Shown in pieces: positions 10,754 to 51,281 of a stretch of 64,000 nucleotides of DNA (its first letter is position 1; each line of letters starts with the position of its first letter). Source of the DNA: Balneola sp. EhC07 (GTDB taxonomy: Bacteria > Bacteroidota > Rhodothermia > Balneolales > Balneolaceae); NCBI RefSeq assembly GCF_001650905.1, contig NZ_LXYG01000016.1:248001-312000 (forward strand). The letters run 5' to 3'. Made by a program: the position numbers and the translations under genes. Below the pieces are notes generated by a model. That model did not search any database and had not been told where the DNA came from. It worked only from the letters and a program-made list of their open reading frames with translations.

Positions 10754-10786
10754 ATAAAAAAAGCCCTCCGAAATTCGAAGGGCTTT
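10754..10786 (-). terminator. Terminator of the gene at 10837-11406
   Basis: On the minus strand AAGCCCTTCGAA pairs with TTCGGAGGGCTT and is followed by seven T residues. It comes directly after the conserved 31-nt block at 10785-10815. Confidence 0.85.
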
Positions 10787-10815
10787 ATAAATGCAAGTAG
10801 TGAAGACCTTAGTCC
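10785..10815 (-). repeat. conserved 31-nt 3' UTR block, copy 1
   Basis: Identical over 31 nt to 11495-11525, with similarity continuing to the stop-codon side (CGTT and GTTT blocks shared). On the transcribed strand it includes AAGGTCTTCACTACTTGC. Each copy lies between a stop codon and that gene's own terminator, and the two terminator stems differ in sequence. Confidence 0.85.
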
Positions 10816-10836
10816 ACGTTTGTTTGATTAGTACTC

Positions 10837-11406
10837 TTAAGGATTTATATAATAGGTAATTTCTTTTACCTGGTTGGTAGATGCATCAAAATAAATGAGC
10901 ATTCCATCCCATTCATTTACCTCCATATCAAATATCAAAATGTAATCAGGCGCTCGAAGCGTAGAAGGCTTTATTTTGAGATCACTTCCAAATTTCTGTT
11001 TCATCAAATCAAAAGAATCCTCCACTCTAATTGATTCCCCTAAAACTTTTACGGTTAGCGCAGAACGAGAAGTAGCTGTAATACCAGAGATATATGGATC
11101 CTCTACCTGGGCATAATAGCCTAAATCAAGACCAGTGAATTTATAATTAATACTTCCAAAACTGGAAACATTTTTTGAAGTGGGGCTTCCAAAAATATCA
11201 TATAACAACTCTTCGTCGTTTGCAATAGAGTTTAGCTGAGCCATGGTATAACCATTGTACTTAATCTGTTGGTATTGAGAATCTGAGATTATATTTATTC
11301 CATGGGGCTGTGTATCGAGAGGGAGTTTTATTATTTCCTGAGCATGCAAATTTATGCTAAGGGTAAGAGATAATATAAAGGCAAAGTAGGGCAGAAGTAG
11401 TTTCAT
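10837..11406 (-). CDS. hypothetical secreted protein
   Basis: A 189-residue protein, not recognised. Signal peptide MKLLLPYFAFILSLTLSINLHAQ, then a soluble domain with mixed strands and helices and no cysteines, so probably periplasmic. No domain could be named. It stands alone with its own terminator. Its 3' UTR carries the same 31-nt block as mdh, which lies just upstream in the same direction. Confidence 0.7.
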   Translation of the reverse strand: MKLLLPYFAFILSLTLSINLHAQEIIKLPLDTQPHGINIISDSQYQQIKYNGYTMAQLNSIANDEELLYDIFGSPTSKNVSSFGSINYKFTGLDLGYYAQVEDPYISGITATSRSALTVKVLGESIRVEDSFDLMKQKFGSDLKIKPSTLRAPDYILIFDMEVNEWDGMLIYFDASTNQVKEITYYINP

Positions 11407-11460
11407 AATATTGTTGTTCTTGAACGTACACTAATTGATGTCTACCTAAAGTAAGCATAT

Positions 11461-11495
11461 AAAAAAATCCCTCACAAGAAATTCTTGAGAGGGAT
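11461..11495 (-). terminator. Terminator of mdh
   Basis: On the minus strand AATCCCTCTCAAGAA and TTCTTGTGAGGGATT form a long stem, followed by T residues. It lies directly after the second copy of the 31-nt block. Confidence 0.88.
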
Positions 11496-11525
11496 TATAA
11501 ATGCAAGTAGTGAAGACCTTAGTCC
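11495..11525 (-). repeat. conserved 31-nt 3' UTR block, copy 2
   Basis: Second identical copy of the block at 10785-10815, here between the mdh stop (11534) and the mdh terminator. Confidence 0.85.
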
Positions 11526-11533
11526 TCGTTAGT

Positions 11534-12490
11534 TTACTTATTCATTAGTTTTTTAAAGTCGTTGAGTGTGCCACGCACAGCATCAGCCGACTGATGCATA
11601 AGATCGGTTTCTTCTTTGGTTAATTCAACCTCAATTACTTCTTTGATTCCGCCTTTGCCTAATTTCACGGGAACGCCGATGTAAAGATCATCAACACCGT
11701 ACTGGCCATCAATATGAGCGCAAACCGGGAAAATTCTGTTTTGGTCAAGAAGTATTGCTTCCACCATTTGAGCAGCAGCAGCACCTGGAGCATACCAAGC
11801 TGATGTTCCCATCAAACCAACAATTTCTCCACCACCTTTTTTAGCACGGTTTACAATTTCTTCCAGTCTTTCATCAGAAATGAAGTGTGTAATCGGCATT
11901 CCGGCAAGTGTAGTAAATCTTGGAAGCGGAACCATAGTATCACCATGTCCACCCATCAACAATGCTTGAATGTCTTTAGGAGAAACGTCCAGCTCTTCAG
12001 CGATGAACGCACGGTAACGAGCAGTGTCTAAGATTCCAGCCATTCCCATTACTTTCTCGTACGGAAGTCCTGAAGCATCTTTTGCAACCTGCACCATTAC
12101 ATCTAAAGGATTAGAAACCACAATAATGATCGTATCAGGAGAGTGCTTTACCAATTGCTCAGTTACGCTTCTAACAATATTTGCGTTGATCTCTAAAAGA
12201 TCGTCACGACTCATTCCCGGTCTTCTCGGAACACCGGCTGTAATCACACAAACATCTGAATTTGCAGTATCTGCATAATCAGTAGTTCCTTTAACTCTTG
12301 TATCGAACAAGTGAATCGGTGATGCTTCCCACTGATCTAAAGCTCTTCCCTTTGAGGGGTAAAATGTTTTATCGTCTTCTTTGCGTTCCAGATCAACGGC
12401 GATCACTTCTTTGGCGAAGTCTCTTTGAGCAACGCTTAATGCTACGGTCGAACCAACATTTCCACCTGCTCCTACAACTGTTACTTTCAT
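11534..12490 (-). CDS. mdh: malate dehydrogenase
   Basis: Interconverts malate and oxaloacetate with NAD in the citric acid cycle. The 318 residues show the LDH-like MDH layout: Rossmann motif GAGGNVGSTVA at the N-terminus, the substrate loop RRPGMSRDDLL with its arginines, NPLDVM, and the catalytic His in GGHGDTMVPL. The arginine in RRPG fits malate rather than lactate as substrate. It is a single gene with a terminator; upstream lies an A/T-rich hairpin. Confidence 0.96.
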   Translation of the reverse strand: MKVTVVGAGGNVGSTVALSVAQRDFAKEVIAVDLERKEDDKTFYPSKGRALDQWEASPIHLFDTRVKGTTDYADTANSDVCVITAGVPRRPGMSRDDLLEINANIVRSVTEQLVKHSPDTIIIVVSNPLDVMVQVAKDASGLPYEKVMGMAGILDTARYRAFIAEELDVSPKDIQALLMGGHGDTMVPLPRFTTLAGMPITHFISDERLEEIVNRAKKGGGEIVGLMGTSAWYAPGAAAAQMVEAILLDQNRIFPVCAHIDGQYGVDDLYIGVPVKLGKGGIKEVIEVELTKEETDLMHQSADAVRGTLNDFKKLMNK

Positions 12491-17507: not shown

Positions 17508-17556
17508 AAGTGAAAAGTGAAAAGTGAAAAGTGAAAAGTGAAAAGTGAAAAGTGAA
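17508..17556. repeat. 7-bp tandem repeat, seven perfect copies
   Basis: Seven head-to-tail copies of AAGTGAA with no mismatch, beginning 6 nt after the stop codon of the preceding gene. Perfect short repeats of this kind change copy number by slippage. It may affect mRNA ends; no function is evident. Confidence 0.95.
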
Positions 17557-17657
17557 ATTCTAGTTTCTTTCTGTAAATCCTTTTAAATCCCGGTGTTCTT
17601 TTTTCTTTTCTTACCGGCTCTGCCTACTTTCACAGCAATAACTAACTAAACTTTGCT

Positions 17658-51067: not shown

Positions 51068-51281
51068 GGGTCATCCTGAACTTGTTTCAGGATCTTACGG
51101 AATGGCTTAGTTTAAATATCCGAGCATCAATTATTTTAATGTATCATACCAATCCCATTATAAACGTATTGCTAGCTTATCCGAAGTTGGTCAAAAATAT
51201 AGATAGGCTTTGTTTTAAGTCATTAATAAAGATTCAAGATGTGTTCCTTACAAAGATCCTGAAACAAGTTCAGGATGACCC
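51068..51281. repeat. possible MITE-like element with 29-bp perfect inverted ends
   Basis: 51068-51096 (GGGTCATCCTGAACTTGT...) is the exact reverse complement of 51253-51281, 29 of 29. Each arm is itself a small palindrome (CCTGAA/TTCAGG). The 156-bp interior is AT-rich with no credible gene. No clear target-site duplication flanks it. The DNA on both sides up to 50962 and 51311 shows nothing else. Confidence 0.7.

Follow-up and report, generated by a model that had tools for sequence, protein, structure and literature searches.

Why should an identical block of 31 nt stand behind two unrelated neighbouring genes, each time just before a terminator? In Balneola sp. EhC07, the genes in question are mdh and a gene for a secreted protein, both located in the window, the 64,000-nt stretch of DNA that was analysed here (Table 1). 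The original prediction had read the block as a functional 3' UTR element, with a 3'-derived small RNA among its examples. Comparison of the two copies within the window bore out the underlying observations: both lie on the minus strand, where they read GGACTAAGGTCTTCACTACTTGCATTTATAA, they agree in 31 of 31 positions, and the match goes on towards the stop codons, reaching about 40 nt at the cost of two mismatches (AACAAACGTGGACTAAGG... versus AACTAACGAGGACTAAGG...), on the side where conserved bits had been seen. Each copy is bordered by a stop codon on one side and by its own, different intrinsic terminator on the other, and copy 1 starts at most 10 nt from the mdh stop codon.

The idea of a motif repeated across the genome did not hold. 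Searching the 3.62-Mb genome for the 18-nt core, with as many as two mismatches allowed, returned exactly two sites, both of them here, and the 9-mer was not enriched. A finding of only two copies had been named as the sign of a local duplication, and this holds for the duplication itself; the mdh copy is nonetheless conserved far beyond this genome. The evidence of function therefore comes from the mdh copy, its orthologues and the copies linked to aconitase described below, and not from the repeat itself. What stands is a functional-looking element with a fixed position before a terminator; its repetition over many genes was not found. The only other direct repeat of at least 25 nt in the window is a tandem repeat of the 7-mer AAGTGAA (17508-17560). 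The window also holds an inverted repeat of about 29 nt (GGGTCATCCTGAACTTGTTTCAGGATCTT; 51068-51281) with arms about 165 nt apart.

Table 1. Features around the two copies of the 31-nt block (positions in the window).
Feature	Position	Strand	Basis
31-nt block copy 1, mdh 3' UTR	11495..11525	-	exact repeat; orthologues at 86/86 readable mdh 3' ends
Hairpin GAGGAC-UAAG-GUCUUC, copy 1	11512..11527	-	predicted fold; covariation, 63 distinct sequences
Near-invariant core CACUACUUGC, copy 1, candidate seed or protein site	11503..11512	-	98-100% per column, 63 distinct sequences
Intrinsic terminator of mdh/copy 1 (AUCCCUC...GAGGGAU + U run)	11461..11495	-	sequence and fold
mdh, malate dehydrogenase, host of copy 1	11534..12490	-	ORF; Pfam Ldh_1_N + Ldh_1_C
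31-nt block copy 2, after secreted gene	10785..10815	-	exact repeat; extra copy only in G000, G004, G007
Hairpin region of copy 2 (GUGGAC-UAAG-GUCUUC, one stem mismatch)	10802..10817	-	sequence; weaker fold than copy 1
Intrinsic terminator after copy 2 (AAAGCCCUUCGAA...GGGCUUU + U run)	10756..10786	-	sequence and fold
Secreted protein gene, 189 aa, between the two copies	10837..11406	-	ORF

Behind mdh, the element consists of a short hairpin, followed by (U)CACUACUUGC and an intrinsic terminator. All 33 family members that were read first (G000-G021, G023-G033) carry it between the mdh stop codon and the terminator. For a wider survey we used a covariance model built from 25 family elements (44 positions, 6 pairs), which leaves out the terminator because its stems could not be aligned. 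The model matched the element in 86 of 92 family genomes, and the element is present at all 86 readable mdh 3' ends of this Balneolaceae-type family, one per genome. In 85 genomes, the element ends 37-107 nt beyond the last codon of mdh; in G085, mdh and the element lie on different contigs, and the contig with the element (L141) opens with the end of mdh. The only other mdh that was found, in G081, is cut by a contig end. Thus, no intact mdh 3' end in the family is without the element. Of the eight further model matches, three are the second copies in G000, G004 and G007, two are degenerate copies in G023, and three are weak matches in G099, G101 and G108. The weak matches (G099-C6, G101-C12, G108-C46, and likewise one in G296) lie in or beside coding sequence and are probably due to chance. 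The nearest named genomes were metagenome assemblies of Balneola sp.

Using one uniform rule, a terminator was found directly 3' of the element in all 33 mdh 3' UTRs tested. Such regularity is what one would expect if the element merely aided termination or the release of RNA polymerase at highly expressed genes, as part of an extended terminator. However, a genome has about one copy and its other terminators are without it, and the element is far better conserved than the terminator stems, so that we regard this explanation as very unlikely. Terminator stems, spacers and hairpin loops vary freely among the genomes, and the core is near-invariant: over 63 distinct sequences, ACUACUUG is invariant with its final C at 98%, and each column of ACUACUUGC is 98-100% conserved amid variable flanks and terminators. 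According to a review, the seed of a 3'-derived small RNA can be revealed by sequence conservation in the interval from stop codon to terminator (PMC9438474). Two features by which such RNAs are recognised are found here, namely 8-10 strongly conserved bases amid variable sequence, in the form of ACUACUUGC, and a sense-strand position between stop codon and intrinsic terminator.

The hairpin 5' of the core (GARGA...UCYUC) is retained with changes across the same 63 sequences. At its third pair we counted A-U 36 times, G-U 14 times and G-C 11 times, and 15 cells showed changes on both sides compared to 7.6 in shuffles (0 of 500 shuffles reached this value), with slid structures scoring worse. 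This covariation supports the hairpin, in an alignment that was fitted to the model and is thus biased towards the structure; when 25 sequences were aligned independently with MAFFT, the support was weaker and pointed the same way. The loop ranges from 3 nt to more than 20 nt. A coding function of the element is ruled out, since these loop lengths shift out of frame. Predicted folds consist of hairpin, core and terminator, with z-scores of -3.5 to -7.0 that are partly owing to the terminators. The core is predicted to be unpaired in the mdh copy of the window's genome (G000). In many other lineages it is predicted to pair partly with 5' sequence, through weak extra outer pairing of its 3' part (GCAA/UUGC or AAGUA/UACUU), and is thus not simply an open seed. 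In family f4, a different hairpin (GUAGUG/CACUAC) absorbs half of the core. The core sequence is constant while its partner strand is not, which suggests a constraint that comes from outside the RNA molecule.

The link to mdh ends at the border of the family. In the sister families f3, f4 and f5, none of the 16 genomes read has the element behind mdh. The only credible model matches outside the family, in G038 and G040, lie directly behind aconitase, and reading of aconitase 3' ends placed the element there in 11 genomes of these three families. Two further aconitase 3' ends from sister families have a degenerate CCTACTTGC, and no credible copy was found in several f3 genomes and in genus g31 of f4. 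In G375, the element lies 3' of a SusD-like gene, the one host outside the TCA cycle; the hosts are mainly two TCA enzymes. In G035 (family f2), it lies 217 nt past the aconitase stop codon, beyond the terminator of aconitase and with a terminator of its own, an arrangement that resembles a free small-RNA gene. That core and terminator are kept while the host gene changes is expected of an RNA that is independent of its host mRNA.

The same distribution has to be weighed against an action in cis, in which the hairpin and CACUACUUGC would be bound by a protein and set the stability or 3'-end processing of their own mRNA. The protein could, for instance, be apo-aconitase or another metabolic enzyme, or one that blocks nucleases. 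There is precedent in the 3' UTR of acnB in Escherichia coli, which is bound by apo-aconitase B and the mRNA thereby protected (PMC4150767), and the sister families likewise have their element in the aconitase 3' UTR. A position always in the 3' UTR of the host, hosts that are mostly two TCA enzymes and a core that is predicted to be partly structured in some lineages are all in line with such a role. In contrast to acnB, the element is located on mdh in the family of the window, and protein binding is putative. The location on aconitase mRNA that an aconitase-bound element should have is found in the sister families, but no element was detected behind aconitase in the two genomes of the genus Balneola that were examined (G000, G003). 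Moreover, the single copy, the change of host and the separate position in G035 have no obvious reason under cis action, and the invariant 9-10 nt are long for a typical protein site. We therefore consider cis action unlikely, with roughly a one-in-five standing in our judgement.

A local event appears to account for the second copy. G001 and G002 carry the element only once, and its terminator directly behind mdh is of the type that stands behind the second copy in the three close Balneola genomes G000, G004 and G007; in these three, the terminator after the mdh copy is of the type found in more distant relatives. The copies form direct repeats around DNA that G001 and G002 lack, 0.7 kb in G000 and G007 and 2.7 kb in G004, where it includes two secreted-gene paralogues besides a peptidase-like gene. 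In the window, the secreted ORF is the sole ORF between the copies. Its product matched no significant family in a Pfam search and has strong matches only in G000, G004 and G007, besides one weak match in G035. The hairpin of copy 2 contains one mismatch in G000 and G007. This layout fits a history in which DNA was inserted or duplicated at the element, with or without a later loss by recombination between the repeats; the mdh tree is compatible with both courses. The copy behind the secreted gene looks like the product of such a local event.

Insertions at this site were also observed elsewhere. In G023 (contig C52, L132, 1-7900), the mdh 3' end is duplicated twice together with element and terminator, in repeats of about 3 kb that carry a tyrosine-recombinase-like ORF. 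The duplicates show ACTACGTGC and a compensatory change in an inner stem; as there is a run of N in the contig, the second of these repeats could be an artefact of assembly. Duplication of the mdh 3' end beside a recombinase-like ORF indicates that the site was used more than once for insertions. In G001, a PIN/VapC-like ORF lies immediately past the mdh terminator (L143, 1274-1705), and the interval between mdh and msrA differs among close Balneola genomes.

Does the element then serve as a site of attachment or recombination at the 3' end of mdh, with the two copies as the ends of an inserted cassette? The flanking of DNA missing from G001 and G002 and the duplication beside a recombinase-like ORF in G023 would agree with this. 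Yet no recombinase lies between the copies in the window, and the proposal accounts for the second copy but not for conservation in genomes free of insertions. It also sits badly with the occurrence behind other genes in the sister families and with loops of such different length that show base-pair covariation. As the reason for the conservation, an attachment site is strongly disfavoured, and as a whole we hold this explanation to be highly improbable. Loop variability and covariation lead us to reject the view that the element is conserved for a role as a recombination site, be it dif-like or of another kind.

We consider it probable that the element is a trans-acting, 3'-end-derived small RNA in the mdh 3' UTR, with a second copy derived from a cassette. 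Of the readings offered by the original prediction, this one is best supported, by the mdh orthologues and the aconitase-linked copies, as it explains the conserved core, the terminator, the single copy and the change of carrier together. The RNA would be released from the mdh mRNA or transcribed with it, with the hairpin and (U)CACUACUUGC as its 5' and middle part, followed by the terminator. A seed in or overlapping ACUACUUGC could act in trans by base pairing or by binding a protein, and the expression of other transcripts would thereby be coupled to that of a TCA-cycle gene. In the sister families, aconitase mRNA would serve as carrier of the same RNA. Copy 2 would stem from insertion or duplication of the cassette with the secreted gene at the element, and may be passive or provide a second dose.

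Putative targets did not stand out in the genome of the window. The exact complement of the 9-nt core occurs 31 times compared to 42 times for a reversed control, which is no enrichment, and among the sites read none is near a start codon. One of the 31 sites is helix 40 of 16S rRNA (GCAAGUAGUGA), and the RNA might pair with it and affect ribosome assembly or activity. The core is exactly complementary over 11 nt to UCACUACUUGC in 15 of 15 genomes of the order in which 16S rRNA was read, and shuffled 14-mers match as well in 0.25% of trials (P ~0.0025), for a match that was noticed after the fact and is thus a lead only. Helix 40 is a stably folded hairpin in mature ribosomes, however; the same helix is found in sister genomes where no element was found, and the 16S sequence is invariant here, which leaves no room for a covariation test. 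We give this proposal hardly any credence, the lowest of all those considered. In the 16S rRNA genes of L212-L231, helix 40 reads GCAAGTAGTGA and is exactly complementary to the core over 11 nt.

A search for Hfq (PF17209) gave no hit in ten genomes of the order, while five control genomes were positive. With no Hfq found, a small RNA would need another chaperone or none. The closest architectural parallel, the enterobacterial SdhX (PMC6393394, PMC9438474), likewise has a short conserved sequence at the very 3' end of an mRNA of the TCA cycle, and beyond its short seed the sequence varies strongly (PMC9438474). It differs from the element in that no homology was found, that the host here is mdh or aconitase depending on the family, and that no Hfq was found; the element is known here from its sequence, and its transcript and targets are putative. 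The FopS/GibS RNAs of Bacteroides thetaiotaomicron are small RNAs from the Bacteroidota that function independently of Hfq, one FopS member being derived from a 3' UTR (PMC11697453). FopS has 14 paralogues and acts on polysaccharide-utilisation loci, whereas the element occurs about once per genome and is mostly linked to the TCA cycle. The Rfam model of FopS gave only a noise score near the region and not at the element. Neither SdhX, FopS nor any other Rfam family reached its gathering score at the element, and Rfam 15 returned no family at its cut-off for this region of the window or six related loci.

Outside the order, 29 sites with the 13-mer were read, 27 of which have no terminator after them and lie in or antisense to open frames. 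In L248 and L251 (1501-1513 in both), from Bacteroidota of other classes, TTCACTACTTGCA is immediately followed by an intrinsic terminator; in L248 it comes after a lysine aminotransferase gene, and in L251 it is apparently free-standing. As relatives of the element, these two sites are suggestive only (P 0.013 versus background). Eight matches outside the Balneolales in the scan of named genomes are probably due to chance, seven of them being in or antisense to long open frames.

Our literature search found nothing that joins Balneolaceae with a small RNA and nothing on a small RNA derived from an mdh 3' UTR, which is not proof of absence. It is possible, at somewhat less than even chance, that the element represents an undescribed small-RNA family of the Balneolales, and maybe of the wider Bacteroidota: a Hfq-free, carrier-switching unit with a near-invariant 10-nt core that possibly touches the ribosome via helix 40. 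If true, a little-studied bacterial order in which no Hfq was found would have a regulatory RNA that is nearly universal among its members and tied to the TCA cycle. With its fixed core and changing carrier, this RNA would offer a direct test of whether 3' UTR small RNAs evolve independently of their host mRNAs.
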